Shown here piece by piece: positions 1,459 through 49,236 of a DNA stretch of 64,000 nucleotides (position 1 is the stretch's first letter; every line of letters begins with the position of its first letter). The notes under the pieces were generated by a model, which saw nothing but the letters and a program-made list of their open reading frames with translations, searched no databases and was not told where the DNA came from. Both the position numbers and the translations under genes were made by a program. The stretch spans positions 496,001 through 560,000 of the forward strand of contig NZ_QODK01000003.1 in assembly GCF_003324485.1 (NCBI RefSeq), in the 5' to 3' direction. Source of the stretch: Cohaesibacter intestini. GTDB lineage: Bacteria > Pseudomonadota > Alphaproteobacteria > Rhizobiales > Cohaesibacteraceae.

Positions 1459-1536
1459 CTTGATCTCCATTCGGGCTAGGTGCACGGTCTCTAAGCTCAA
1501 CCGGAAGCATCTGCCCTGAAGGGCCATTCGTCAAAC

Positions 1537-2229
1537 CTATTCGACAAAGAAATCCGGAAATTCCTCCCGCACATTCTTCAGCAGCTCGAAGATTTCCGAC
1601 AGATGCTGGTCCATCTGCCGCGAAGCCTCCGACTTGTCACGATTCTTCAGCGCTTCGAGTATGCGAACATGGGCCTGAAAGGCATTGTCGAGATTGAGCG
1701 GCAAGGACCGATAGCGCACCCGATCCATGTGCGCCTTGTGTTCCTTGATCAGGTCCCACGCAAATCCAACACCGGAGCGGTTGTAAATTTCTTTGTGAAA
1801 GTCTTCATCAAGAGTGTGAAAAAGGTCGGAATCATGATCTTGCACAGCCTTGCGCTGCGTTTCGATATGATCGGAGAAGTAGTCCAAGTCCTCTTCACTC
1901 AACTTCTCGCAGGCCACCTTGATGGCTTTTGATTCGAGCGCGCAGCGAATGAAACGCGCTTGCAGAACGGCATTTTCCGATATGAAGGAAATCCGCGATG
2001 CAACCTGAGGACGAACATCCAGAAATCCCATTCGAGACAGTCTGAAAAAGACCTGTCGAACCGGTTGTCTTGAGATTCCAAAGGCTTTCGCGACATCCGC
2101 CTCGGACATCTTGGTGCCCGGCTTGAGGTCAAGCGACAGGATCTGGCGCTGCAATTCATCAAACACCCGGTCCGCAATCGCGGTACGGTTGAGAGAGATT
2201 GGCGCGGCTTGCAGGGGATCGTTCGGCAT
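1537..2229 (-). CDS. GntR-family (FadR/FCD) transcriptional regulator of the uronate locus
   Basis: A 230-aa regulator with an N-terminal winged helix (about residues 15-80; RVFDELQRQILSLDLKPG, then SEADVAKAFGISRQPVR) and a C-terminal all-helical FCD ligand domain. Asp and His residues that could form the FCD metal or ligand site lie in DEDFHKEIY and in the C-terminal HLSEIF region. The start at 2229 has GGAG about six bases upstream, whereas the in-frame ATG at 2241 has none. The gene is divergent from uxaC, and the spacer holds a strong palindromic site. By analogy with ExuR/UxuR it probably represses the uronate operon and is released by a uronate or intermediate. That role is inferred from position. 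Confidence 0.85.
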   Translation of the reverse strand: MPNDPLQAAPISLNRTAIADRVFDELQRQILSLDLKPGTKMSEADVAKAFGISRQPVRQVFFRLSRMGFLDVRPQVASRISFISENAVLQARFIRCALESKAIKVACEKLSEEDLDYFSDHIETQRKAVQDHDSDLFHTLDEDFHKEIYNRSGVGFAWDLIKEHKAHMDRVRYRSLPLNLDNAFQAHVRILEALKNRDKSEASRQMDQHLSEIFELLKNVREEFPDFFVE

Positions 2230-3823: not shown

Positions 3824-4798
3824 ATGCTCAAGTCTCTGTCTGCCGCACTCGTCGCCAGCGTCGCCATGGTTGCCACAGCATCCGCATGCGAAATCACGCT
3901 GAAGTCTTCCGACACCCATCCTGATGGCTACCCAACGGTTGAAGCCGTGAAATATATGGGTGAGTTGCTCAAGGAACGCACCGACGGCCGTATCTGCGTC
4001 GAAGTCTTCCATTCCGCTCAGTTGGGTGAAGAAAAAGACACCATCGAACAGACCAAATTCGGTGTGATTGATCTGAACCGCGTCTCCTTTGGCCCATTCA
4101 ACAACATCGTTGAAGAATCCAAGGTTGTCTCTTTGCCATATATCTTCAAGGGCGTGGATCACATGCACCGCGTTGTTGACGGCGAAATCGGTGATCAGAT
4201 CCTCGCAGCCTTTGAGCCACACGGCTATGTTGGTTTGACCTTCTATGATGGTGGCGCACGCAGTTTCTACAACAGCGTCAAGCCAATCAAATCCATGGAT
4301 GACCTCAAAGGCATGAAAATCCGCGTCATGCAGTCAGACATCTTCGTTGACATGATGACCGCTCTTGGCGCCAACGCCACCCCAATGCCATATGGTGAGG
4401 TATATTCCTCCATCCAGACCGGCGTTATTGATGGTGCTGAAAATAACTGGCCATCCTACGAGTCTTCCGGTCACTTTGATGTTGCTGGCTACTACACCCT
4501 TGATCAGCACCTGATCGTGCCGGAAATTCTCGTTATGTCGAAAATCTCCTGGGACAAACTGTCCGCTGAAGATCAGGCTGTCGTTCGTCAGGCTGCCAAG
4601 GATTCCACTCCGAAAATGCGTGAATTGTGGGCCGCTCGCGAAAAAGCATCCGAAGAAAAAGTTATGGCTGCTGGCGTAAAAGTCGTTACCGACATTGACA
4701 AGGCACCATTTATGTCTGCCATGGATTCGGTTTACGAAAAACACGTTACCTCCGATAACCTGAAAGATCTGGTCAAGCGCATTCGTGCAACCGACTGA
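3824..4798 (+). CDS. dctP: TRAP transporter solute-binding protein DctP (uronate type)
   Basis: A 324-aa periplasmic receptor of a TRAP transporter. The N-terminus is a clear signal peptide, with a hydrophobic stretch ending ATASA before the mature CEITLKSSD. Family features include the [11 protein letters not shown] region, the middle segment [13 protein letters not shown] with the Arg that usually holds the substrate carboxylate, and [18 protein letters not shown] precedes the ATG. It sits between uxaC and the membrane components dctQ and dctM, so the ligand is probably glucuronate, galacturonate or a related hexuronate. A stable hairpin follows the gene, which would favour higher expression of the binding protein. 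Confidence 0.93.
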
Positions 4799-35547: not shown

Positions 35548-36660
35548 TCATTCAGCCGCAACCGCGTCGAAGCCGTGCCGAAACTGCTCCTCCCTTGCCA
35601 AGGGTGGAATGGCTGCGGTCGGGATATGTCGGTCAGTGAGGGACTGCAACTCGCATTGCATCTGCTGGCTATCGCGCGGATCGGTCGCCAAAAGGCGGAC
35701 CACATGTTTGCCGGATTGGCTCAATGCCACCATTCGGTCCACGGTGCTGACAAACTCGCCGTCCGCGAAGCTCTGTGCTTCATCGATCGTCTGTCGCTTG
35801 GCTTCGCGTCGTGCCAACTCCAGAATGTCAAGGTTGGTTGCAGGGCCATGCAAGATCACATCAGCGCCTTGCAGTGCACGGATTGCCCGCATTGGCAGCA
35901 GATCGCTTTCTCCATGACTGGCATCAATGAATGTGACTGTTCCCGGCTTTCCTTTGAGTCGAGCCACTTCCGCGATGAAGCCGTCGAAGTGAGAAACATC
36001 CGGAACCTTGCGACCCGAAAAGGCCAAATCAACGAACCGCTCCCAAAAGCGACGGCGTGGCGCACCAGCCGTCAGGTGCCTGAGAACGGCAGGGCGAACC
36101 CGTCGCGCCAGATCAGCCCAATCGGCCATTGTGGACGATAACAAGCTTTCAATCCGTCGGCGAATGGCTTGTCCCAGAATGGGCGCAGCTCCATCAGTTG
36201 ATATCCCGATCACCACAGGTGAGCGATTGACAATGGAGCCAAACTGAAACTGGCAATAGGCCGGTTTGTCGATGATATTGACCACCGCTCCCGCCGCGTT
36301 GGCCTGAAGTCTGAAGCGCACGCACTCATGAGTGGTTTCAAGATCGCCAATCGCCATCACAGCCCCGTCAAAGCTTGTCTCATCCCATTGCTTTCGATGC
36401 CAGATCAACTGGCCTGAATGACACTTGCCGTTGGTCAGAAGGTCGAGCATGTCTTCTTCCGGTGCAGGGGCATGGACATGAACCTCGGCACCGCTGGCTG
36501 CCAGCAGTTCGGCCTTCCACGCAGCCCCATCTCCGTCGCCTGCTACAACCACTTTCGCACCCTTGAGGTTGAAGAAAACGGGCAAGGTCGCAAGGCAGCC
36601 AACCCGCTCACGGCGTGTGCGTCTTTTGCGTCGTCCGGCTTCATTCAGCAGCAATGTCAT
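35548..36660 (-). CDS. cysG: Siroheme synthase CysG with a truncated, degenerate methyltransferase domain
   Basis: A 370-aa protein. Residues about 25-225 are a precorrin-2 dehydrogenase/ferrochelatase module: KVVVAGDGDGAAWKAELL binds NAD, then VNIIDKPAYCQFQFGSIVNR and VIGISTDGAAPILGQ. The C-terminal part (about 235-370) resembles the start of a uroporphyrinogen-III methyltransferase (LLPMRAIRALQGADVILH, GKHVVRLLATDP), but the SAM-binding GAGPGD motif is replaced by DASHGESD and the domain ends early. It probably supplies the last siroheme steps for NirB. The start at 36660 overlaps the nasA end by 20 bases and has GGAG seven bases upstream. The methyltransferase activity is likely lost. Confidence 0.8.
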   Translation of the reverse strand: MTLLLNEAGRRKRRTRRERVGCLATLPVFFNLKGAKVVVAGDGDGAAWKAELLAASGAEVHVHAPAPEEDMLDLLTNGKCHSGQLIWHRKQWDETSFDGAVMAIGDLETTHECVRFRLQANAAGAVVNIIDKPAYCQFQFGSIVNRSPVVIGISTDGAAPILGQAIRRRIESLLSSTMADWADLARRVRPAVLRHLTAGAPRRRFWERFVDLAFSGRKVPDVSHFDGFIAEVARLKGKPGTVTFIDASHGESDLLPMRAIRALQGADVILHGPATNLDILELARREAKRQTIDEAQSFADGEFVSTVDRMVALSQSGKHVVRLLATDPRDSQQMQCELQSLTDRHIPTAAIPPLAREEQFRHGFDAVAAE

Positions 36661-39331
36661 GGAGCATCTCCGCGATTTCCGGTTTGCAGGAGCCACAATT
36701 GGTTCCTGCCCGTGTCATGGCGCCGACCGCATCGGTGGATTGGCAACCTGCAGCGATTGCGGCCGCGATTTCATTCTGCCCCACCTGCATGCAGGCACAG
36801 ACGATCTTGCCTTTGTCGGGCAGGGCGGCGCTGGGCGCGCTGGCAAGCACTTGTGCCCGTTCAGAGAAAGTGCGCCGATGCCCGTCGAGCAACCCGGCGG
36901 CAAAATCACGCGACACCGATACAGGCTCTGCCGCGAGAAAGATGGCAGCGACCAACTGATCTCCTTCAAACTGGGCCAATCGCATCCGCTCCTTGCGCTG
37001 GTCCAGAAAGACGAGAGGGGAGGCGTCTGACGGAAGGTCAAACAGGCCGGCCATCTGATGCGGCGCAATAGCAGCAGGTCGCTCAGACAGGGCAAACTCC
37101 ACCCGCCAACCATCCTTGCACTTGGCGATTGCCCAGTAAGGCAGCGCCAAGGCGACCGGCTTGTCTCTCAGGATCGCAAAGCCATAGCTCTGGATGGGGG
37201 CCGGGGTGAGGGTGACCCGTGCCGACTTGGATGCTGGCTGACCTGAAAAAGGGTCTGTGACCGGCGGTATCAAGACATCAACGCGGGCCTTGGCGCTTAC
37301 CTGATCGGTCCAGTGGATCGGAACGAAAACCTCCCCCGGCCTGACACGGTCGGTGATCAGGGCACGGACAACAATCTCGCCTCGGTCGTTGCTGACCGAA
37401 ACGAGAGACGCATCAGTAATGCCGCGCGCCTTGGCGTCCTCAGGGGAGAGCTCGCAAAAAGGTTCGGCCAGATGCGCCGACAACCGGGCGCTACGGGCGG
37501 TGCGGGTCATGGTGTGCCAGTGATCCCGAACCCGGCCAGTATTGAGAATGAGCGGCTCGATCCCGGCCTTGCCAACGGCTTTGAGCTGTTTTGGCAATGC
37601 AACGTCAATTGCTCGCGCCCGTCGATCCGGGGTGAAGAAGTTACCATTGGAAAAGAAACGAGTGGCCTTGGAAGATGAGGGTTTCTCTTCGGTTTGAGGC
37701 CAGTAAAAGGGTTGCATGGCGTCATAGTCGGCGGCATCGCGTCCCGCCCATGCGCCAATGTCAAAATCACGGCTGCCATCATTGTCCTGCTGGCTGAGTG
37801 CCGCATATTCGCTGAAAATATCCGCTGCATTCTGCCATGGGAACAAGGCCCCGTGACCCATCCTGCGGCCCACTTCGGCCATTTGCCACCAATCGGCCTT
37901 TGCCGCACCGGGTGCGGGCAGGAAGCTTCGTTGGCGGGAAATGCACCGTTCGGAATTGGTTACACTGCCCGCCTTCTCGCCCCATGCCAAAGACGGCAGC
38001 TTGATGTCGGCCAGATCGAGTGTATCGGTGCGGTCCTGCACATCTGAGACAATCACCAGCGGGCAGGCCTTGATCGCAGCACGCACCGCATCGGCGTCCG
38101 GCATGCTGTCGACCGGGTTGGTCGCCATGATCCAGAGGGCCTTGATTTTACCGTCGCCGACCGCTTGAAACAGGTCAATCGCCTTCAGGCCCGGCTTGTG
38201 CGGCAGGCGATCCGTTTGCCAGAAGTCACCCACCAAGGCCCGATGGCTGTCATTTTCGATATCCATATGGCAGGCCAGCATATTGGCAAGGCCGCCCACT
38301 TCACGGCCCCCCATGGCGTTGGGCTGGCCGGTGACCGAAAAAGGCCCCATGCCGGGACGGCCAATTCGCCCTGTTGCCAAATGGCAATTGATGATGGCAT
38401 TGACCTTGTCCGTGCCACAGCTTGATTGGTTGACCCCCTGACTGTAAACCGTCACCACCTTTTCGGTTTTCACGAACAGGCTGTAAAAGGCTTCAAGGTC
38501 GCGCTCGCTGAGGCCAGTGGCTTGTCTGATTGCCTCAGGGGTCAGCGCATTGGCTGCCGCAAGTGCTGTTTCCATTCCATTGACATGATCGGCAACATAG
38601 GTGGCATGATAGGCCGGGGACGCAGCTAGCCTTTGAAGAAGACCAAGGAACAGCGCAACGTCCCCGTCTGGCCGGATGGCCAGATGCAGGTCGGCTAGAT
38701 CGGCAGTGCGGGTGCGACGCGGGTCGATCAGCACCACCGTCAAGTCCGGATTCTTTTGTTTGGCAGCAAAGATCCGCTGATAAAGCACCGGGTGGCACCA
38801 GGCCAGATTGGTGCCCGTGAGCACGATCAGATCTGCCTGTTCCAGATCCTCGTAACAACCCGGCACCGTATCGGCCCCAAAGGCCCGTTTGTGTCCGGCG
38901 ACTGATGACGCCATGCAAAGGCGGGAATTGGTGTCGATATTGGCCGACCCAATCACCCCCTTCATCAATTTGTTGGCGGCATAATAATCTTCAGTCAGGA
39001 TCTGGCCCGAAACATAAAAGGCGATGGCGTCCGGGCCATAGTCCGTGATGATCTGGTTGAAACGGTTCGCAATATGGTCAAGGGCCTTGTCCCATGTGAC
39101 CTGTTTGCCATTCATTTCTGGCGACAGAAGGCGCTCTTCCAATCCGATCGTGTCCGCCAGCGCTGTTCCCTTGGAACAGAGCCGCCCATAATTGGCCGGA
39201 TGATCAGGGTCGCCCTTGACCTTGACGCTGCCATCCTTGCCTTGCCGGATCAGAACACCACAGCCCACCCCGCAATAGGGGCAGGTGGACCGGGTGGTTG
39301 TCTCCTCTGCTGTCGCCACCATTTTTGTCAT
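36641..39331 (-). CDS. nasA: Assimilatory nitrate reductase catalytic subunit NasA
   Basis: An 896-aa cytosolic molybdopterin enzyme (EC 1.7.99.-) reducing nitrate to nitrite. CPYCGVGCGVL and GRLCSKG give the four Cys of the N-terminal [4Fe-4S] cluster. NSRLCMASSVAGHKRAFGAD holds the Mo-ligating Cys, and IDPRRTRTADLADLHLAI and TGRVRDHWHTMTRT are cofactor-binding regions. The C-terminal 60 residues are a BFD-like [2Fe-2S] domain (CACMQVGQNEI, then NCGSCKPEI), as in Klebsiella NasA. The start overlaps the nirD stop (ATGA), and cysG overlaps its end, so it is expressed within the nitrate operon. Confidence 0.96.
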   Translation of the reverse strand: MTKMVATAEETTTRSTCPYCGVGCGVLIRQGKDGSVKVKGDPDHPANYGRLCSKGTALADTIGLEERLLSPEMNGKQVTWDKALDHIANRFNQIITDYGPDAIAFYVSGQILTEDYYAANKLMKGVIGSANIDTNSRLCMASSVAGHKRAFGADTVPGCYEDLEQADLIVLTGTNLAWCHPVLYQRIFAAKQKNPDLTVVLIDPRRTRTADLADLHLAIRPDGDVALFLGLLQRLAASPAYHATYVADHVNGMETALAAANALTPEAIRQATGLSERDLEAFYSLFVKTEKVVTVYSQGVNQSSCGTDKVNAIINCHLATGRIGRPGMGPFSVTGQPNAMGGREVGGLANMLACHMDIENDSHRALVGDFWQTDRLPHKPGLKAIDLFQAVGDGKIKALWIMATNPVDSMPDADAVRAAIKACPLVIVSDVQDRTDTLDLADIKLPSLAWGEKAGSVTNSERCISRQRSFLPAPGAAKADWWQMAEVGRRMGHGALFPWQNAADIFSEYAALSQQDNDGSRDFDIGAWAGRDAADYDAMQPFYWPQTEEKPSSSKATRFFSNGNFFTPDRRARAIDVALPKQLKAVGKAGIEPLILNTGRVRDHWHTMTRTARSARLSAHLAEPFCELSPEDAKARGITDASLVSVSNDRGEIVVRALITDRVRPGEVFVPIHWTDQVSAKARVDVLIPPVTDPFSGQPASKSARVTLTPAPIQSYGFAILRDKPVALALPYWAIAKCKDGWRVEFALSERPAAIAPHQMAGLFDLPSDASPLVFLDQRKERMRLAQFEGDQLVAAIFLAAEPVSVSRDFAAGLLDGHRRTFSERAQVLASAPSAALPDKGKIVCACMQVGQNEIAAAIAAGCQSTDAVGAMTRAGTNCGSCKPEIAEMLHDIAAE

Positions 39332-39663
39332 GCACTCAATCCCGTCAGATCGATCAGAATGTCCTGATCGGACAGCTTCACCGGGAAGCTTTTGGTGGCG
39401 CCTTCATCGGCACCCTGCGCCTGACCGCTTTCAAGGGAAATGACCCAATTGTGCAATGGGCAGGTGACACAGCCGTCATGAACGATGCCTTCGCTGAGCG
39501 GCCCTTTCTTGTGCGGGCAAGCATCTTCCAGTGCAAAGACCTGATCGGCGCTGGTGCGGAACAGGGCGATGGTTGTCTCCCCCACCGTCAGCTTGCGGGA
39601 CCCGCGAACCGGGATGTCGTCAAGGGTGCCAACACGCACCCAATTGTTGCCAAGCGCGTTCAT
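39328..39663 (-). CDS. nirD: Nitrite reductase small subunit NirD (Rieske type)
   Basis: A 111-aa Rieske-fold protein, about the length of E. coli NirD. Unlike many NirD proteins it keeps both cluster motifs: CPHKKGPLSEG and CPLHNWVISLESG supply the two Cys and two His that would bind a [2Fe-2S] cluster. Its start overlaps the nirB stop and its stop overlaps the nasA start, both as ATGA, so the three are tightly coupled. It partners NirB in reducing nitrite to ammonium with NADH. Confidence 0.93.
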   Translation of the reverse strand: MNALGNNWVRVGTLDDIPVRGSRKLTVGETTIALFRTSADQVFALEDACPHKKGPLSEGIVHDGCVTCPLHNWVISLESGQAQGADEGATKSFPVKLSDQDILIDLTGLSA

Positions 39664-42101
39664 TCTGCGGCCTCCATCAGCACCAGTGGATTGAATTCAT
39701 GCTTGTCCTTGCCCGAAACCCGTTCGGACCATGGGTCGACCTGAGCAAATTTCTGACTGAAAACGAAACGGTCATAATAGTCTTTGCGGCGCTCGGCATC
39801 GTCGACAATCTGGGTCCGGACCTCGTCAAGACCAATCCGCTTGGCCCATTTATAAATGCGCTCCAGATAGAAGCCTTGCTCGCGATACATTTGCAGGAGG
39901 GCGACGCAATATTCCATTGCTTCCGCTTCGCTAGAGACATTGCAGAGGATTTCTGTGCCCTTGATTTCAAGGCCAGCCGCCCCGGCAAAATGAATCTCAT
40001 AGCCGGAATCGACGCAAATGATGCCGATATCCTTGCAGGTCGCCTCGGCGCAGTTGCGCGGGCAGCCAGAGACTGCCAGTTTCACCTTGGCGGGGGTCCA
40101 AGACCCCCACATGAATTTTTCAAGCTTGATGCCAAGCCCGGTGGAATCCTGCGTGCCAAAGCGGCACCAGTCCGAGCCGACACAGGTCTTCACCGTGCGC
40201 AGCCCCTTGGCATAGGCATGACCGGAGACAAAGCCGACCTTGCCCAGATCCGCCCAGACAGCGGTCAGGTCTTCCTTCTTGATGCCCAGCAAATCGATGC
40301 GCTGACCACCGGTCACCTTGACCGACGGAATGTCGAACTTGTCGACCACATCGGCAATCGCCCGCAATTCGGTCGAGGAGGTCATACCGCCCCACATCCG
40401 TGGCACGACGCTATAGGTGCCGTCTTTCTGGATGTTGGCATGCACCCGCTCATTGATGAAGCGGGACTGATAGTCATCCGCATACTCTTCGGGCCAATCG
40501 GCCACCAGATAGTAATTGAGCGCCGGGCGGCATTTGGCGCAGCCGCACGAGGTCTTCCATTCCAGAGCTTGCATCACTTCAGGGATGGTTTTCAGTTCCT
40601 TTGCCTTGATCAGGCGGCGCACATCGCCATGCCCCAGATCGGTGCAAGGGCACATGGCGGCAACCGCATTGGGATTGTAGGCATCGCCGAGGGTGGCAGC
40701 CATCAATTGCTCGACCAGCCCGGTACAGGTGCCGCACGAGGCCGAGGCCTTGGTGTGGGCGCGGACATCATCAAGGCTGGTCAGGCCCTTGTCATTGATC
40801 GCGCCAACGATCTTGCCCTTACAAACGCCGTTGCAGCCGCAGATTTCTGCGTCATCGGGCAATGCTGCAACGGCTGCCATAGGGTCCAGCGGCGACCCTC
40901 CCTGATAGGCCTGACCAAAGATCAGCGTCTCGCGCATCTCGGAAACATTGGTCGCCTTTTTCAACATGTCGAAGAACCAAGGTCCATCGGCGGTTTCGCC
41001 ATACAGCACCGCGCCAATGATCTTGTCCCCTTCCAGCACCAGCCGCTTATAGACCCCTTTGGAACCATCCCTGAGGACGATCTCTTCGCGGTCTTCTCCT
41101 TCCGCAAAGTCACCGGCGGAATAGAGGTCGATCCCTGTTACCTTCAGCTTGGTGGCCGTCACCGAGCCATGATATTCCGACGCACCGCCGATCAGATTGT
41201 TGGCAATGACCCCGGCCATGTCATAAAGCGGGGCCACAAGGCCATAACACTGCTGACGATGCTCAACACATTCCCCAAGGGAGAAAATATCCGGGTCGGA
41301 GGTGCGCATGTCGTCCGAGACTACAACACCACGATTGACCTCCAGACCGGCCTCTTTGGCCAGAGCCGTGGAAGGGCGAATGCCCACTGCCATGACGATG
41401 ATCTTGGCATCGATTTTGGTGCCGTCCTCAAGCCGAATGCCTGTCACCTTGCCGTTGGATCCGAGGATCTCCTTGCTGTTGGCCTCGGTCATCACGTCAA
41501 TGCCACGATCCGTGAAGGCTTTTTCCAGCAAGTAACCTGCAGTCGGGTCAAGCTGGCGCTCCATCAGGGTTGGCATCAAATGCAGCACGGTGACATCCAT
41601 GCCTTGTTCTTTGAGGCCAGCGGCGGCTTCCAGCCCCAACAGACCGCCGCCAATCACCACGGCTCTGCCGCCCTGCTTGGCAACCTCAAGCATGCGTTCC
41701 ACATCATCGAGATCGCGATAGGTCAGCACGCCATCCAGATCATGGCCGGGCAGGGGGATGATGAAGGGAGAGGAACCCGTAGCGACCACCAATTGGTCAT
41801 AGGAGGCGCTGATGCCGTTTTCCGACGTCACAATCTTGGCGTCGCGGTCAATCTCGGTCACCTTTGCACCCTTGTGCAGGGTCACGCCATGGGTCTCATA
41901 CCAGGTATCATCATGGGTGATGATGTCTTCATAGGTCTTCTCGCCGGACAGGACCGGGGACAGCATCAGGCGGTTATAATTGACCCGTGGTTCGGCATTG
42001 AAGATGGTCACGTCAAAGGCATCAGGAGCCTTGTCGAACAGATGCTCCAGCATCCGTCCCGGTGCCATGCCGTTGCCAATTACGACTAGTTTCTTTTTCA
42101 T
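39660..42101 (-). CDS. nirB: Assimilatory nitrite reductase large subunit NirB
   Basis: An 813-aa siroheme, [4Fe-4S] and FAD enzyme (EC 1.7.1.15). The N-terminal FAD domain begins VVIGNGMAPGRMLEHL, and an NAD-binding site follows at VVIGGGLLGLEAAAGL. A BFD-like [2Fe-2S] domain holds CGCNGVCKG and SCGTCTGLVEQ (about 420-480). Near 640-690, CVGSDWCRFGTQDS and SGCPRNCAEATCKD provide the four Cys for the siroheme-bound cluster. GGAG precedes the ATG and overlaps the nrtCD stop. It turns nitrite made by NasA into ammonium. Confidence 0.96.
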   Translation of the reverse strand: MKKKLVVIGNGMAPGRMLEHLFDKAPDAFDVTIFNAEPRVNYNRLMLSPVLSGEKTYEDIITHDDTWYETHGVTLHKGAKVTEIDRDAKIVTSENGISASYDQLVVATGSSPFIIPLPGHDLDGVLTYRDLDDVERMLEVAKQGGRAVVIGGGLLGLEAAAGLKEQGMDVTVLHLMPTLMERQLDPTAGYLLEKAFTDRGIDVMTEANSKEILGSNGKVTGIRLEDGTKIDAKIIVMAVGIRPSTALAKEAGLEVNRGVVVSDDMRTSDPDIFSLGECVEHRQQCYGLVAPLYDMAGVIANNLIGGASEYHGSVTATKLKVTGIDLYSAGDFAEGEDREEIVLRDGSKGVYKRLVLEGDKIIGAVLYGETADGPWFFDMLKKATNVSEMRETLIFGQAYQGGSPLDPMAAVAALPDDAEICGCNGVCKGKIVGAINDKGLTSLDDVRAHTKASASCGTCTGLVEQLMAATLGDAYNPNAVAAMCPCTDLGHGDVRRLIKAKELKTIPEVMQALEWKTSCGCAKCRPALNYYLVADWPEEYADDYQSRFINERVHANIQKDGTYSVVPRMWGGMTSSTELRAIADVVDKFDIPSVKVTGGQRIDLLGIKKEDLTAVWADLGKVGFVSGHAYAKGLRTVKTCVGSDWCRFGTQDSTGLGIKLEKFMWGSWTPAKVKLAVSGCPRNCAEATCKDIGIICVDSGYEIHFAGAAGLEIKGTEILCNVSSEAEAMEYCVALLQMYREQGFYLERIYKWAKRIGLDEVRTQIVDDAERRKDYYDRFVFSQKFAQVDPWSERVSGKDKHEFNPLVLMEAAE

Positions 42102-42106
42102 AGGTC

Positions 42107-43864
42107 TTACTCCGCTGCAAAAGTCGGTTGCGAGCCGCGCTGGCGTGCCAATCGGGACGCCCTTTTTTGCTGGATTGATTGAAGTTGATCTGCTGATGGG
42201 TCTGCGCCACCCTCATAGGCTTCAAGGAAGTCGAGCAGTTCTTCGCGATAGGCGTAATAGTCAGGGTGGGCCAGCAGCTCCTTGCGCGAGCGTGGCCGTG
42301 GCAAATCCACTTCCATGATGTTGCCAATCCGGGCATTGGGGCCGTTTGACATCATCACCACCCGGTCAGCGAGCAAAATGGCCTCATCGACATCATGTGT
42401 GACGCAGATGGTTGTCACGTTGGTCCGGTCCCAGACCTCCATCAACACATCCTGCAACTCCCAGCGGGTGAGGCTGTCGAGCATGCCAAAGGGCTCGTCA
42501 AGCAGCAGCAGCTTGGGCGAAAGGGCGAAGGCCCGGGCAATCCCGACACGCTGTTTCATGCCGTTGGAGAGGTCAGACGCATAGCGGTCGAGACTGTCAC
42601 CGAGACCCACTTTGGAGAGATAATAATCAACGATATCTGCCCGTTCCGCCTTGCTGGCCTTGGGATAGACCTGATCAACGCCGAGGGCGACATTCTCCCG
42701 AGCGGTCATCCAGGGCATCAGGGAAGGGGCCTGAAACACCACCGCACGCTCTGGTCCGGCTCCGGTCACCTGCTTGCCATCCAAAATGATGCCTCCGCCC
42801 GTGATCGGATTGAGGCCCGCGGCCATCGACAGAACCGTGGATTTGCCGCAGCCGGAATGGCCGATCAGGGTGATGAACTCGCCCTTGTTGAGATTGAGCT
42901 CAAAGCCGTCGACCACGGTGAGTGGCCCTTTGGGGGTCGGATAAACCTTGGTCAGCTGCGAGAATTGCAGATATTTCTCGCTGCGTGGCGACTGGGCCGC
43001 CTCCTGATAGGCCTGCGGCAACGGCTTTGACCGGCTCGAGGGCAAGATATTGGGCAGTTCGATCAGATTGTCCGCATCACTGTGATGGCGTTCGCTGCCC
43101 ACATTCATCAGATAATCGGTGATGGCGGCACGAAGGGCGATGAAATCATCGTCATGGTTCATTTCTCCGCGCTCCCGCGGCCGTGACAGATCGACCTTGA
43201 ATTCCGGTCCCAAGGTTGCCTTTGGTCCCGGGGTCAGCGGAATGATCCGGTCTGCCAGCAAAATCGCCTCATCCACATCATTGGTAATGAGAATGATGGT
43301 TTTCTTTTCCTGCTCGGAAATGGCAGCGAATTCGTCCTGCAACTTGGCGCGGGTCAAGGCGTCAAGGGCAGACAGAGGCTCGTCCATCAGCAACACTTCT
43401 GGCTGCATGGCGAGCACGCGTGCCACGGCCACACGTTGCCGCATGCCGCCGGACAATTCAGCCGGCTTGCGGTCGCGGGCATGGGACAGGCCGACCATCT
43501 CGATATATTTGTCGATGATCGCTGCCCGGTCCGCTTTCGATTTGCGTTTGTGGACGCTGGAGACGGCCAGCTCGATATTGCCATAGACCGACAGCCACGG
43601 CATCAGCGAGTAGGACTGGAACACCAGTCCGCGCTCCGGGCTTGGGCCTGCAATTTCCTTGCTCTTGAAGATCACGCCCCCCTGATCCGGAGCGATCAAT
43701 CCGGCCAGCAGGGAAATCAGAGTGGTCTTGCCAGAGCCGGAGAAGCCGACAATCGCAATGAATTCCCCTTCTTCTACCTTCAGGTTGATGTCGCTGAGGA
43801 CATCGTTGCGGCTGGCCCCTTCGCCAAAATGCTTCGATAGGGCGGAAATTTCCAAAAAGGACAT
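42107..43864 (-). CDS. Nitrate/nitrite ABC transporter ATPase, tandem NrtC-NrtD fusion
   Basis: A 585-aa cytosolic protein holding two ABC ATPase domains. Domain 1 (about 1-245) has Walker A GFSGSGKTTL, signature LSGGMRQRVAVARV and Walker B VLLMDEPLSALD. Domain 2 (about 285-550) has GHSGCGKSTV, the altered signature LSNGMKQRVGIARAF and LLLLDEPFGMLD. Both show the acidic D-loops and switch His or Asn typical of nitrate/sulfonate ATPases (ITNDVDEAI, VTHDVDEAI). The linker lacks the NrtA-like domain known from cyanobacterial NrtC. It lies between nrtB and nirB and should energise the NrtB permease. The fusion of two ATPases in one chain is notable. Confidence 0.9.
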   Translation of the reverse strand: MSFLEISALSKHFGEGASRNDVLSDINLKVEEGEFIAIVGFSGSGKTTLISLLAGLIAPDQGGVIFKSKEIAGPSPERGLVFQSYSLMPWLSVYGNIELAVSSVHKRKSKADRAAIIDKYIEMVGLSHARDRKPAELSGGMRQRVAVARVLAMQPEVLLMDEPLSALDALTRAKLQDEFAAISEQEKKTIILITNDVDEAILLADRIIPLTPGPKATLGPEFKVDLSRPRERGEMNHDDDFIALRAAITDYLMNVGSERHHSDADNLIELPNILPSSRSKPLPQAYQEAAQSPRSEKYLQFSQLTKVYPTPKGPLTVVDGFELNLNKGEFITLIGHSGCGKSTVLSMAAGLNPITGGGIILDGKQVTGAGPERAVVFQAPSLMPWMTARENVALGVDQVYPKASKAERADIVDYYLSKVGLGDSLDRYASDLSNGMKQRVGIARAFALSPKLLLLDEPFGMLDSLTRWELQDVLMEVWDRTNVTTICVTHDVDEAILLADRVVMMSNGPNARIGNIMEVDLPRPRSRKELLAHPDYYAYREELLDFLEAYEGGADPSADQLQSIQQKRASRLARQRGSQPTFAAE

Positions 43865-43876
43865 GAGATCGGCTCC

Positions 43877-44959
43877 CTATCGATTGGCGCTGAAGGTGAA
43901 GGCGCGCTGCAGGGCATACATCACCCGGTCGAGCATGAAGCCAACGAGGCCAATGGTCAGAACAGCGACCATGATCTTGGCCAGCGATTGGGAAGAGCCA
44001 TTCTGGAACTCATCCCAGACGAACTTGCCCAGACCCGGATTCTGCGCCAGCATTTCAGCGGCGATCAGCACCATCCAGCCCACACCCAGCGACAGACGCA
44101 GACCGGTAAAAATCAGCGGCAAGGCAGACGGCAGCACCAGCTTGGTGATGGTCTTGCTGGTTGGCAGTTGCAGCACGCGCCCCACATTCATCAGGTCCTT
44201 GTCAACCGACGCCACACCAAGCGCTGTGTTGATCAGGGTGGGCCAAAGCGAGCAGAGCGTCACCGTGATCGCGGATATCAGCAGGGATTTTGGCAACCAA
44301 TCGAAGGTGTCGACATAAAGGGCAGAGACAATCATTGTCACCAGTGGCAGCCATGCGAGCGGCGAGACCGGCTTGAAGATCTGGATCAGCGGATTGATCG
44401 CGCCATTGACCGTCTTTGACAGGCCAGAGGCGATGCCGAGCGGCACGGCGATCAGGGTGCCAATCAGAAAGCCAACACCAACGGTCACCAATGAGGTAAC
44501 AATCTGGTCTAGATAGGTTGGTTTGCCAGTGTAAGAGCGCCACTTGACCTTGTCGGTCTTGCCGGCAGCTTCGAGCTTGGCGTTGCGCTTGTCCTGCCGT
44601 TCATAAAATGCAGCGGCTTTCTCTCGTTCGCGGATATGATCGTCCCACAGATTGCCTGCTTGTTCCCACACCTGAACCGGGCCGGGAATGGCGCCGAGAG
44701 AGGTCTTGACCTGCGGTGCAAGGCCTGCCCACAGCAGAAGAAAAAGCATGATACCCATCAAGGGGATGATCAGAACCCGTTTCAGTTCAGACAATTGCTC
44801 TTTGACATTGTCACCTGCGGCCAGTTTCAGCAAGGGCGTCAACCAGGACAGGCCAAGCGCATCAAGCCAGCCGCTGGCCTTGTTGATTGCCGCAAATAGG
44901 CGCTGTTGACGCGGACTGGGGCCGGACGGGGCCACGGGGTTGGAAGTTATGTCGGTCAT
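43877..44959 (-). CDS. nrtB: Nitrate ABC transporter permease NrtB
   Basis: A 360-aa inner-membrane permease of the nitrate/sulfonate/taurine family. A long N-terminal part with one membrane segment (LLFLLLW region) and a charged, probably periplasmic stretch (REREKAAAFYERQDKR) precedes the transport core. The core has SLVTVGVGFLIGTLIAVPLG and FKPVSPLAWLPLVTM, then the EAA-like loop GRVLQLPTSKTITKLVLPSA. The size and extended N-terminus are typical of NrtB. It is followed at 12 bases by the ATPase gene and preceded by nrtA. Confidence 0.93.
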   Translation of the reverse strand: MTDITSNPVAPSGPSPRQQRLFAAINKASGWLDALGLSWLTPLLKLAAGDNVKEQLSELKRVLIIPLMGIMLFLLLWAGLAPQVKTSLGAIPGPVQVWEQAGNLWDDHIREREKAAAFYERQDKRNAKLEAAGKTDKVKWRSYTGKPTYLDQIVTSLVTVGVGFLIGTLIAVPLGIASGLSKTVNGAINPLIQIFKPVSPLAWLPLVTMIVSALYVDTFDWLPKSLLISAITVTLCSLWPTLINTALGVASVDKDLMNVGRVLQLPTSKTITKLVLPSALPLIFTGLRLSLGVGWMVLIAAEMLAQNPGLGKFVWDEFQNGSSQSLAKIMVAVLTIGLVGFMLDRVMYALQRAFTFSANR

Positions 44960-45063: not shown

Positions 45064-46458
45064 TCACTTTTTGATGATGTCGCTGCCTTCGACCATTTCT
45101 CCGGTCTTCAGGCCGATGGTCAGAGCGTCGAGATAGGCATTGGGCTTCTTGCCGTCATAAGCCACGCCATCGATGATGTCGGCGGCTGGTGTCGGTGCGC
45201 GATAGCCATCGCTCTCCCATGGGAAATCCGCTTCGGCAACATGGCCTTCTTCGACCAGCATCTTGGCGGCTTTCAGATAGATGTCCGGACGATAGACAGA
45301 CTTGGCAACCTCGTCATACCAGCTGTCAGACTTGGCTTCCGGGATCTGGCCCCAGCGGCGCATTTGCGAGAGATACCAGACCGCATCCGAATAGTAGGGA
45401 TAGGTGGCGAAGTAGCGGTAAAAGACGTTGAAGTCCGGCACGTCGCGTTTGTCGCCTTTTTCATACTCGAACGTACCGGTCATCGAGTTGGCGATGACTT
45501 CCGCATCCGCGCCGACATATTCGGACCGCGACAGGATCTCCACGGCTTCCATGCGGTTGGCATTGTCGTTTTCGTCGAGCCACTTGGCCGCTCGGATCAG
45601 CGCCTTGGTGATGGCGAGGGTGGTATTCGGGTTTTCCTCGGTGAACTCTTTGGTCATGCCAAAGACCTTCTCGGGATTGTTCTTCCAGATTTCAAAGTCG
45701 GTAATCACCGGTACGCCGATACCCTTGAACACCGCCTGCTGGTTCCATGGCTCACCGACGCAATAGCCATAGATGGTACCTGCTTCCAGTGTGGCAGGCA
45801 TTTGCGGTGGAGGGGTCACAGACAGCAGGGCGTCAGCCTTGATCTGGCCCGAAACGTCGGTCGGGGAATAGAAACCGGGATGAATGCCGCCCGACGCCAG
45901 CCAGTAGCGAAGCTCGTAATTGTGGGTGGAAACCGGGAAGACCATCCCCATATTGAACGGCTTTCCTTCGGCCTTGAATTGCTCGACAACAGGCTTCAGG
46001 GCATCGGCCTTGATTGGGTGCACCACCTTGCCATCGTCGCCGACGGGAATGTTTTTCTTCATCATTTCCCAGATTTCATTGGACACGGTGATGCCGTTGC
46101 CATTCAGGTCCATCGAAAAGGGAGTGACGATATGGGCTTTGGTGCCAAAGCCGATGGTGGCGGCCAGCGGCTGACCGGCCAGCATATGGGAGCCATCCAG
46201 CTCACCGGTAATGGTGCGATCAAGAAGAACCTTCCAGTTGGCCTGTGCTTCGAGGGTGACAAACAGGCCCTCATCCTCGAAATATCCCTTTTCATAAGCA
46301 ATCGCCAACGGTGCCATATCAGTCAGCTTGATGAAGCCGAACTTCAACTCATCCTTCTCGACATCAAGCATTTCCGCGTAGGACGATGACGCAAAGGTCA
46401 CCGCGAGGGCGGTTGCGGTCATGAGAAGAGATGTTTTGATCTTGCGTGCTGCTGGCAT
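45064..46458 (-). CDS. nrtA: Nitrate/nitrite-binding protein NrtA (periplasmic)
   Basis: A 464-aa solute-binding protein. The signal peptide ([20 protein letters not shown], then SYA) precedes the mature chain. [53 protein letters not shown] and [13 protein letters not shown] are the nitrate-binding-protein signatures shared with NasS. The start at 46458 has AGGAGG six bases upstream. The gene is directly behind a long leader with a predicted intrinsic terminator and a sigma-54 promoter, so expression should respond to nitrogen status and to nitrate through NasT. It feeds nitrate to NrtB. Confidence 0.93.
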
Positions 46459-46486
46459 AAATGCCTCCTGTTTGGTCCATAAAAAA

Positions 46487-46541
46487 AGCCATACCGGTGG
46501 GGACATTCCGGGAGGAGGAGAATGTCCAGACCAATATGGCT
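46487..46541 (-). terminator. Leader terminator upstream of nrtA (antitermination target)
   Basis: Read on the minus strand, AGCCATA pairs with TATGGCT, GGT with ACC, and GGACATTC with GAATGTCC, with wobble pairs between. The hairpin is followed immediately by a run of T residues (46481-46487). It lies just before the nrtA ribosome site and would stop transcription of the operon unless bypassed. Confidence 0.8.
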
Positions 46542-46555
46542 GCTTTGCCTTTTCA

Positions 46556-46589
46556 TGACCCATCATTGGGCCAGCCGCATCGCCGCGGC
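46556..46589 (-). promoter_or_regulatory. Tandem hexaloop hairpins, candidate NasT (ANTAR) binding RNA
   Basis: On the minus strand GCCGC-GGCGAT-GCGGC (46589-46574) is followed directly by TGGCCC-AATGAT-GGGTCA (46573-46556). Both are stems closed by six-base loops, the second with A at loop position 1 and both with G at position 4. This is the shape recognised by ANTAR proteins; NasT is encoded upstream. Only the first loop departs from the consensus, at position 1. Confidence 0.7.
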
Positions 46590-46604
46590 ATGTGAAACCT
46601 TCAC

Positions 46605-46620
46605 TGCAATCAGCGTGCCA
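46605..46620 (-). promoter_or_regulatory. Sigma-54 promoter of the nitrate operon
   Basis: The minus strand reads TGGCACGCTGATTGCA, an exact match to the -24/-12 consensus TGGCACG-N4-TTGCA. Transcription should start near 46594, just before the tandem hairpins. It implies NtrC-dependent control by nitrogen limitation. Confidence 0.85.
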
Positions 46621-46742
46621 GTTTCAGGGGTTGATAATTAAGGCATTGAAATATAGGGAATAATTGTCACGAAAATGATTTTGAGATGCTTTGGGATGCT
46701 AATTCATTTGATGCCTAAAATGTCATCAATACGTGCAAATGC

Positions 46743-47984
46743 TTAATTTTTGCCCACTCTTTGCCCGGCGACATAGGCGGCCAATGCATCAGGATCGAAC
46801 GGAATCCGATCAAAAAAGACATCAGGTCCCAGCGACCCCAATCCCTGATCGGATGCGATTGGGGACTGGATATCCTGGGCACTCAGGATGTCTTGCTGAG
46901 TGTCGGGAAGGGCGATGTCCAGAGGAGCCAACGCCGCTCTGAGCATCTCGGGATGACAGGATGCCCGCACACGGGCAATATGGTCGTCACTCAGTTCCAC
47001 ATGCCCCCAGCGCACCATTTGGGAATAGAACCACAAGGCATGGCTTTCTTTCGGAAAGAGCGCAGCACGAGACAGTGGCAAATAGAAGTCCGGCATGTTC
47101 AGGCGCTCGGGATCTGCAAGTCCCGTCTCGATGGCTCCGTTAAAGCCCGGCTTGAGGCGTGTTTCACTCAGCCCGATATAGCCGGGTGCGCTGAGAATGC
47201 GGCAAAGCTCCTCTTTGTTGGCCGGGGATTCGATCCATTCTGCGGCTTTATACAAGGCACGCAGGAGCGCATAGTGTGCTTCCTGCTGATCAAGGGCAAA
47301 GGACCGCCGCACGCCAAGCACCTTGTCTGGACTGTTTTGCCAGATATGACCCTTGGTGGTCAGCAGGACGCCATCGCCATCCAGAATGGCTGCGCTGTTC
47401 CATGGCTCTCCGACACAAAAGGCATCCAACGCACCGGACCGCAACGCATCAGGCATGGTGGAAGGGGGCAGAAAGACAATGTCGGTATCCTGATCCGGAT
47501 CTATGCCACAGCCTGCGAGCCAATAGCGCAACTCATAATTATGGGCTGAATAGGGATGCACGGCCCCAAGGCGCAACTTGGGATTTCCACGTGCGCGGCG
47601 ATCCTCGATCATTGCTTTGAGCCGCGCCCCTGCCGCCCCGGCATCGAAGGAAACCGGCCCGGAGGCCGGAGCATGGCCATCCCATATCGACCGTGCCATC
47701 GTGACCATATTGCCGCCCAGCCCCAGAGCCATGGGCACAACGATATCCAGCGGCAGGGGAAACAGTTTGCAACTGGCGGCAACCGAAATGGGAGCCAACA
47801 AATGGGCAACATCGAACAGGCCAATCGCCAGTTTGTCCCGCAAGGTTGCCCACGAGGTTTCCTTGTGCAGATGCAGATCAATGCCTTCGGCCTCCGCAAA
47901 GCCGCACTCCCGCGCGATGATCAAGGGAGCTGCATCATTGAGCGCAATGTAACCTGCCTGAATATGGGTTGCTTTACTGGTCAT
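46743..47984 (-). CDS. nasS: Nitrate/nitrite sensor protein NasS
   Basis: A 413-aa protein homologous to NrtA but with no signal peptide, so cytosolic. The shared ligand-binding stretches are visible: [32 protein letters not shown] and WFYSQMVRWGHVEL. NasS proteins bind nitrate or nitrite and otherwise hold NasT inactive. GGAG precedes the ATG, and it begins nine bases after nasT on the same strand. It therefore co-regulates the nrt-nir-nas operon downstream, whose leader carries a fitting RNA target. Confidence 0.93.
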   Translation of the reverse strand: MTSKATHIQAGYIALNDAAPLIIARECGFAEAEGIDLHLHKETSWATLRDKLAIGLFDVAHLLAPISVAASCKLFPLPLDIVVPMALGLGGNMVTMARSIWDGHAPASGPVSFDAGAAGARLKAMIEDRRARGNPKLRLGAVHPYSAHNYELRYWLAGCGIDPDQDTDIVFLPPSTMPDALRSGALDAFCVGEPWNSAAILDGDGVLLTTKGHIWQNSPDKVLGVRRSFALDQQEAHYALLRALYKAAEWIESPANKEELCRILSAPGYIGLSETRLKPGFNGAIETGLADPERLNMPDFYLPLSRAALFPKESHALWFYSQMVRWGHVELSDDHIARVRASCHPEMLRAALAPLDIALPDTQQDILSAQDIQSPIASDQGLGSLGPDVFFDRIPFDPDALAAYVAGQRVGKN

Positions 47985-47992
47985 GATTGCTC

Positions 47993-48583
47993 CTACAAAT
48001 CCATTGCTTCCGCAGCTAGGACGATGCTGCTGGCAATCTCTGACATTTTTTTTTGTTTGTTCATGGCGGTGGTGCGGATTTGTCTGTGCGCCTCGCTTTC
48101 GCTCAGACCCTTGCGATCCATCAGGATTTCTTTGGCCTTGGTGACCACCGACTGGTCCTTGAGCTGGGATTTGGCCTCGAAAAGCTCATCCTCCATTCTC
48201 GAGAAGGCCCGGAAGCGGGCAATGGCCATCTCCATGATTGGACGAATGCGATCCTTCTTCAGCCCGTCCACCACATAGGCCGACACCCCTGCATCAATTG
48301 CTTCTTCCATGGCGGAGAGGTCCGATTGATCGACAAACATCGCAATCGGCCTTTTGATGGCGCGCGACAGGGCAAAAAAGGCCTCAAGCGTGTCGCGTTG
48401 CGGGTTTTCCAAATCTACAATGATGACATCAGGCTGGCTGGTCTGTACCAGCAGCGCCAGACCTGAGAAGCTGTCAACGATCTCGACATTCAGATAGCCG
48501 CTTTCGATCAGCCCCAACTTGATGATGGAAGCGCGCGTGCGGTTTTCGTCTGCGACTAGAATTTTGAGATCCGATGGTGACAT
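47993..48583 (-). CDS. nasT: NasT response regulator with ANTAR RNA-binding domain
   Basis: A 196-aa two-part protein. The N-terminal receiver-like domain (about 5-125) has LKILVADENRTRASII and DVIIVDLENP; the C-terminal ANTAR domain (about 135-196) contains LKDQSVVTKAKEILMDRKGL and SEAHRQIRTTAMNKQKKM. NasT proteins prevent termination in nitrate-operon leaders by binding paired hexaloop hairpins when NasS releases them. The start at 48583 matches usual NasT length, although the ribosome site is weak; the longer frame upstream is unlikely. It precedes nasS. Confidence 0.92.
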   Translation of the reverse strand: MSPSDLKILVADENRTRASIIKLGLIESGYLNVEIVDSFSGLALLVQTSQPDVIIVDLENPQRDTLEAFFALSRAIKRPIAMFVDQSDLSAMEEAIDAGVSAYVVDGLKKDRIRPIMEMAIARFRAFSRMEDELFEAKSQLKDQSVVTKAKEILMDRKGLSESEAHRQIRTTAMNKQKKMSEIASSIVLAAEAMDL

Positions 48584-48791: not shown

Positions 48792-48866
48792 TGGCTGGGG
48801 TGGTAGGATTCGAACCTACGGTACACGATACCAAAAACCGTTGCCTTACCACTTGGCTACACCCCA
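48792..48866 (-). tRNA. tRNA-Gln (anticodon UUG)
   Basis: The minus strand folds as a cloverleaf with acceptor TGGGGTG/CACCCCA, a D-arm at GCCAAGTGGTAAGGC, anticodon loop TTTTGGT giving TTG, and T-arm GTAGGTTCGAATCCTAC. The 3' CCA is encoded. It reads codon CAA (and CAG by wobble). Confidence 0.95.
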
Positions 48867-49159: not shown

Positions 49160-49236
49160 CGGAGCGTAGCGCAGCCTGGTAGCGCACCTGATTTGGGATC
49201 AGGGGGTCGGAGGTTCGAATCCTCTCGCTCCGACCA
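49160..49236 (+). tRNA. tRNA-Pro (anticodon UGG)
   Basis: Acceptor CGGAGCG/CGCTCCG, D-arm with GCAGCCTGGTAGCGC, anticodon loop TTTGGGA giving TGG, and T-arm GGAGGTTCGAATCCTC; the 3' CCA is encoded. It stands alone, divergent from tRNA-Gln. Confidence 0.95.

Follow-up and report, generated by a model that had tools for sequence, protein, structure and literature searches.

The locus studied here raises the question of how the noncoding leader in front of the nitrate-assimilation operon of Cohaesibacter intestini may control the expression of that operon. The leader lies in a 64,000-nucleotide stretch of DNA (hereafter, the window) and is read on the minus strand, where nasT, nasS, a promoter, the leader and nrtA (from position 46458) follow each other in the 5′ to 3′ direction. 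As claimed in the first-pass annotation of this DNA, the nasT and nasS genes are located directly upstream of the leader. The product of nasT (47993–48583) has a receiver-like and an ANTAR domain (PF00072 and PF03861), and these domains, as well as the position of the gene beside nasS, identify it as a NasT protein; nasS (46743–47984) codes for a nitrate/nitrite sensor-like binding protein (PF13379, NMT1_2).

The first gene of the controlled operon, nrtA (45064–46458, also an NMT1_2 match), most likely starts at the ATG at 46458–46456, behind the AGGAGG Shine–Dalgarno sequence at 46464–46469, and not at 46566 as in the mechanical list of open reading frames. It is followed on the same strand by nrtB (43877–44959, matching a nitrate permease model below its cut-off), a fused nrtCD (42107–43864, ATPase models), nirB (39660–42101, NirB model) and an open reading frame (36641–39331) that, from reading its sequence, we take to encode an assimilatory nitrate reductase-like protein. 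These genes (36641–44959) presumably constitute the rest of the operon. Two tRNA genes are located just upstream of nasT, at 48795–48866 and 49160–49233, on opposite strands. NasS is only ca. 62% identical to its counterparts in genomes G010 and G011 of the same genus, with NasT at ca. 80% and NrtA at 88%; judging by these values, the NasS sensor appears to be fast-evolving in the genus.

The exact −24/−12 σ54 promoter reported earlier, TGGCACGCTGATTGCA at 46605–46620 of the minus strand, is confirmed: it agrees fully with TGGCACG-N4-TTGCW, and the window contains one exact match where 0.05 are expected from shuffled sequences. The transcription start is predicted near 46594. Genes for σ54 (rpoN) and NtrC were found in the genome, and the promoter sequence together with rpoN marks the site as σ54-dependent, with the start a predicted one. 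The pattern TGGCAY-N6-TGC is present at most 110 nt upstream of the P1 hairpin described below in 57 of 69 related leaders (the window's own counted, a few genomes twice) against 0.0 expected. A weak candidate NtrC-type site, TGCACGTATTGATGACA, with one mismatch to the consensus taken from PMC5424462, lies ca. 100 nt upstream of the promoter (46721–46737, minus strand). Since the window has 140 matches with up to two mismatches against 118 expected, this match is by itself not significant.

Three hairpins that can be read as hexaloops, rather than the two annotated previously, are found in the leader, all on the minus strand. The 5′-most one, P0 (GCCGC-GGCGAT-GCGGC, 46574–46589), has G at loop positions 1 and 4. 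It is followed by P1 (TGGCCC-AATGAT-GGGTCA, 46556–46573), a 6-nt linker TGAAAA (46550–46555), which is inside the 5–12 nt range of eut leaders (PMC3369931), and P2 (GGC-AAAGCA-GCC, 46538–46549), a hairpin of 3 bp that the first-pass annotation overlooked. The terminator hairpin and T run proposed there are present, the hairpin (−28.1 kcal/mol) at 46488–46540 and seven T residues at 46481–46487. The 3′ arm GCC of P2 (46538–46540) doubles as the 5′ foot of the terminator. As can be seen, both P1 and P2 carry A1 and G4 in their loops, so that the predicted leader displays the features of an ANTAR dual-hexaloop RNA: stems of at least 3 bp, six-base loops with A1/G4, a linker and an overlap of P2 with the terminator. 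In energy folds, two of the window's loops are closed to four bases, that of P0 via G1-U6 and that of P1 via A1-U6.

Since the 3′ arm of P2 is at the same time the foot of the terminator, the two structures exclude each other. The full leader folds at −56.4 kcal/mol (z = −4.07). Among predicted folds of growing transcripts, P0 is present throughout and P1 up to 129 nt, the best fold of the full leader breaking P1 in favour of a long-range helix. P2 appears at six of nine transcript lengths between 57 and 105 nt and is missing once the transcript reaches 111 nt, the point where the GGC foot of the terminator is out. Removing the three lowest pairs weakens the terminator from −28.1 to −18.8 kcal/mol and leaves its end three bases away from the T run. 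Because P2 consists of three pairs only (−2.8 kcal/mol), most of the energy holding it must come from NasT. A duplex between the P1 loop region, CCAAUGAUGG, and the 5′ arm of the terminator, CCAUAUUGG, was considered as a rival antiterminator and dropped, its −9.7 kcal/mol being about equal to the −9.0 kcal/mol of P1 alone.

Related leaders were collected in two rounds. NasS-type proteins (related NrtA included) were matched in 159 of the 297 genomes searched from the order. The 30 loci retrieved, one of which is that of the window, all have a NasT match upstream of NasS. Downstream of nasS, a common order of elements is seen in most of these loci: a σ54 site, a variable hairpin, a hairpin of the GCGTCC-AAxGxx-GGGCGC type, a short linker and GGC-AAxGxx-GCC leading into a terminator. 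P1 and P2 were identified by at least one of two scanners in 28 of the 30 (27 with A1 in P1); neither scanner found the pair in L029 and L035. The set was then enlarged to 110 with the 80 best of 584 relatives, taken from named genomes whose titles are almost all alphaproteobacterial, and the second scanner recovered the element in 71. Two of these (L025 and L051) were wrong picks and were dropped, leaving 69, with a few genomes represented twice. Twenty loci, 18 of them with no match by the first scanner, were read by eye; some of them, L041 and L044 for example, contain the usual element with a P2 stem outside the scanner's pattern. Six rhizobial loci (L043, L046, L055, L061, L067 and L069) carry downstream of nasS a different version that the scanners missed, with P1 loops such as AACGGC and a P2 of the form GAC-AxxGAC-GTC overlapping a ..GCGGCG-T terminator.

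An alignment of 29 non-redundant leaders (A2, less than 82% identical) was used to examine the pairings. Since A1/G4 was a requirement of the second scanner, part of the loop conservation in A2 results from the choice of input, and it is no independent evidence. The 6-bp helix of P1 is 98.9% paired in the 29 leaders, with both sides changed at three of its pairs, that of P2 is 100% paired, and the terminator helix that uses the bases of the P2 3′ arm is 96.5% paired; in control structures slid by 1–3 columns, 33–58% of cells are paired (36–58% for P1 and P2). Three leaders (L030, L096 and L105) carry T where the others have C at the base common to P2 and the terminator, and each of the two partners of this base is A rather than G, so that A-U replaces G-C in P2 and U-A replaces C-G in the terminator. 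The three look rhizobial and related, so this three-way change may represent one event. The aligned sequences thus suggest selection on both the P2 and the terminator pairings, which a model of mutual exclusion requires.

As an independent check, a model was built from 27 leaders, with the window and its congener excluded. It gives the leader of the window 39.7 bits (E = 5.7e-10), the next match having E = 0.22. With E up to 10, Rfam had no match within the leader; the closest one, to a microRNA model at 46659–46748 of the plus strand, is far below its threshold. A 24-base perfect match to the leader in genome G005 was set aside as chance, since it is part of a long open reading frame and its surroundings show no leader. 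Short motifs with small stems can arise by accident, and the leader could in principle be an ordinary attenuator of unrelated function whose hexaloops are fortuitous. This is extremely improbable: besides the score of the leave-out model and the nasT linkage in all 30 loci fetched, the second scanner passed none of 1380 shuffled leaders and matched non-leader sequence six times in 0.95 Mb, both strands counted.

Within the genus, an ANTAR protein is encoded in 6 of 18 genomes, one in each (one of the 18 genomes is only 64% complete). The same six genomes contain a strong nas leader, at 33–55 bits, scores for which the leaders of the window and of G010 were in the training set. In G008, a leader-like remnant (L150, about 3988–4127, plus strand) keeps the σ54 site, P0 and the terminator; as read by eye, the loops of its P1 and P2 are eight and five bases long. 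No ANTAR match was found in the G008 genome and no NasT in 8 kb around the remnant, and the 3-kb locus L138 gave no match to NasT, NasS, NrtA or FNT.

A second candidate NasT target was found in the window's own genome (G000), on another contig (C5, near 228000) and unlinked to nasT. This leader (L118, about 1531–1615, minus strand), with a σ54 site, a hairpin and a P1–P2 pair with loops AACGGC and AATGTT, precedes a formate/nitrite transporter (FNT) gene (PF01226). It comes from a search with model R1 that gave 37 matches in this genome at E up to 10; the window's match and six others were read, and L117, L119, L120, L121 and L124 (15.7–23.2 bits) were rejected, having no P1–P2 pair. Score alone does not separate L118 (22.8 bits) from such noise (L117, 23.2 bits), and it was kept because of its σ54 site, its P1–P2 pair and its conservation. 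The FNT-leader pair is also present in G010, G011 and G013, there beside and divergent from nasT; no FNT-leader match is listed for G001 and G009. In all four leaders, P1 AACGGC and P2 AATGxx are kept. Read by eye, only the G013 leader has a plausible terminator with a T-rich run; G010 and G011 have an altered run, and the FNT leader of the window's genome shows no terminator.

With these sequences at hand, the place of P0 can be considered. The abutting hairpins with loops GGCGAT and AATGAT that the first-pass annotation had taken for the ANTAR pair do exist, as P0 and P1, but the pairing is not supported, since across relatives the conserved partner of P1 is the downstream P2; the zero linker and G1 that had seemed unusual belong to the extra P0. 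In favour of a P0–P1 pair, both hairpins can be read as six-base loops with G4, and the abutting layout (0–1 nt) recurs in G010, G011 and G013. Measured from the full stem, P1 and P2 are 1–5 nt apart in some related NasT leaders, so linker length alone does not decide the assignment. Several facts make this reading very unlikely all the same. Neither P0 nor P1 overlaps the terminator, and in published ANTAR elements the partner of P1 is a downstream hairpin that does (PMC3369931, PMC3369936). P0 is 11–13 nt away from P1 in G001 and G009. A linker of 3 nt already cripples eutP, drastically lowering induction (PMC3369931), and by analogy the eut data also speak against a zero linker.

The variability of P0 itself is a further argument against its pairing with P1. 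A scanner requiring a σ54 site kept 84 of 170 loci, from which 14 were removed (ten mis-called or dubious, four repeats). Among the remaining 70 leaders, a hairpin is found at the P0 place in 65 and is absent in five; its loop was read with 3–5 bases in 42 of the 65 and with six in 22, of which 14 have G4. Compared to shuffled sequences, the support is moderate (p ≤ 0.05 in 30 of 72, p ≤ 0.2 in 57 of 72; p = 0.06 for the window). In six nas-leader types of the genus, the G008 remnant included, P0 can always be read as a hexaloop with G4 and its stem covaries; position 1 is A in four of them and G in the window and the G008 remnant. Read by eye, the FNT leaders of the genus lack such a loop (three have five bases and G011 has CGAGGT), an argument against P0 being indispensable as a NasT site. 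On this sequence evidence, P0 is a usual 5′ hairpin, in some lineages resembling a third ANTAR loop, and possibly a third NasT site.

NasT is the sole ANTAR protein of the window's genome and carries Gln144 (codon CAG) and His166 (CAC) at positions that align with EutV Arg142 and Tyr164. In EutV both residues touch the flipped-out G4, the contact of Arg142 being restricted to the P2 loop (PMC8934654). Positions 144 and 166 are 22 apart and on that basis correspond to NasR R340 and W362, and the substitutions R340A and W362A abolish RNA binding (PMC7496416). In the other NasT loci (115 of 116 loci could be matched, some genomes twice), the 144 position is Arg in 114 of 114 and the 166 position is Tyr in 78 and Phe in 36.

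These data, together with the presence of a single ANTAR protein and of an FNT leader with no visible terminator, lend some weight to an explanation in which R144Q and Y166H have cost NasT its RNA binding while the leader stays intact, the operon now being always attenuated or otherwise regulated. We consider it improbable, though less so than a P0–P1 pair. P1 and P2 are kept in two unlinked leaders of the genome, and NasT is otherwise conserved: Lys, Glu and Met are retained at the EutV contact positions Lys 149, Glu 160 and Met 172, and of 62 columns conserved to at least 97% it departs at one, Arg144. Histidine can still stack. AmiR, a known antiterminator, has the same pair (Gln146/His168 in 1qo0_D, positions counted from the alignment), and its amiE target has A1/G4 loops (PMC3369931); by this analogy, a working NasT is more likely than a dead one. 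The coupling of Gln and His could be followed in 19 of 24 AmiR-like loci, too few to claim it: 15 are Arg/Tyr, and Gln/Tyr, Val/His, Ala/Tyr and His/Tyr occur once each.

Returning to a functional NasT acting on P1 and P2, we infer that it binds its RNA through Gln144/His166 in the manner of AmiR and that P0 may serve as an auxiliary site. In its fullest form, the genus leader would be a three-hexaloop antiterminator on which P0 loads NasT onto nascent RNA before P2 exists, and NasT of the window's species would have an AmiR-like Gln/His grip on the loop G4, RNA recognition having changed with no change in the RNA. We regard this combination as speculative and rather unlikely to hold in full. 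A literature search for ANTAR antiterminators with three hairpins found none, and the triple form seems not to be in print, an impression from one narrow search.

We conclude that the leader is very probably an ANTAR/NasT-type switch, dependent on nitrogen and nitrate, in front of the nrt-nir-nas operon. The antitermination switch put forward in the first-pass annotation is thus supported in its promoter, NasT/NasS, leader and terminator, with P1–P2 replacing P0–P1 as the ANTAR pair, one hairpin of which had been wrongly chosen. The parts, their conservation and the mutually exclusive pairings are results of the present analysis. The proposed mechanism is as follows. When nitrogen is scarce, an NtrC-type protein would activate the σ54 RNA polymerase, transcription would start near 46594, and P0, P1 and P2 would fold while emerging from the polymerase. 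With no nitrate, NasT would be held by NasS, the GGC of the terminator arm (46488–46490) would on emergence displace the weak 3-bp P2, and transcription would stop at the T7 run. With nitrate, freed NasT would bind the A1/G4 hexaloops of P1 and P2 and keep P2 closed; the GCC/GGC pairs at the base of the terminator, adjoining the T run, would then be lost, allowing read-through into nrtABCD-nirB-nas.

Release of NasT from NasS by nitrate, leader binding and antitermination are carried over from published work on relatives and would apply here by analogy. In Paracoccus, the hold of NasS on NasT is broken by nitrate, and the nasA leader is bound by NasT (PMC3795266). However, a plain on/off scheme may not apply to all species: in Paracoccus, one leader hairpin was needed for expression and the second mattered little, nas transcript was present in the absence of nitrate, and the last nitrate step was put at translation (PMC5424462). 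In Bradyrhizobium, most NasT-dependent genes have no hairpins, and narK, with predicted hairpins, rises in a nasT mutant (PMC6759348). These results and the short linkers in relatives weaken parts of the argument for a switch. According to the EutV–RNA crystal structure, moreover, the two loops of an RNA cannot both be reached by a single dimer (PMC8934654).

The system resembles Klebsiella nasF/NasR in its nitrate-controlled ANTAR antitermination, A1/G4 in P1 and P2 and the overlap of P2 with the terminator (PMC3369936, PMC7496416); NasR, however, is one protein with its own nitrate domain, whereas here NasS would sense and NasT bind. The NasT/NasS regulator pair is shared with the Paracoccus nasA and Bradyrhizobium nosR leaders (PMC3795266, PMC5424462, PMC6759348) and, as cited in those papers, with Azotobacter nas, and as in Paracoccus the leader is located between nasTS and the operon. 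Compared with the published descriptions of these three systems, the present one has an extra 5′ hexaloop abutting P1 and a Gln/His NasT. With Enterococcus eut/EutV it has in common the dual hexaloop, 3-bp minimum stems, the linker range and P2 in the terminator (PMC3369931); EutV, unlike NasT here, is switched by phosphorylation and has Arg142 and Tyr164 (PMC8934654). Pseudomonas AmiR is likewise a pseudo-receiver ANTAR protein held by a binding-protein partner (PMC3369931), with the same Gln/His pair, but it senses amides, and its sequence is only distantly related to that of NasT (29.8 bits).

The nrtA leader thus joins a known class of bacterial RNA switches that open nitrate-uptake genes only in the presence of nitrate, and the extra P0 hexaloop and the Gln/His NasT are details beyond that class. 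For NasT leaders, the covariation at the base common to P2 and the terminator supports, on evolutionary grounds, a model in which the two structures exclude each other. The locus is also a compact natural test case for how ANTAR domains read RNA. A residue pair that NasR mutants predict to break RNA binding, and which is common to AmiR, here faces two conserved targets, and the genus offers genomes with and without NasT for comparison. The affinity of this NasT for its RNA would show whether Arg and Tyr/Phe/Trp are truly required.
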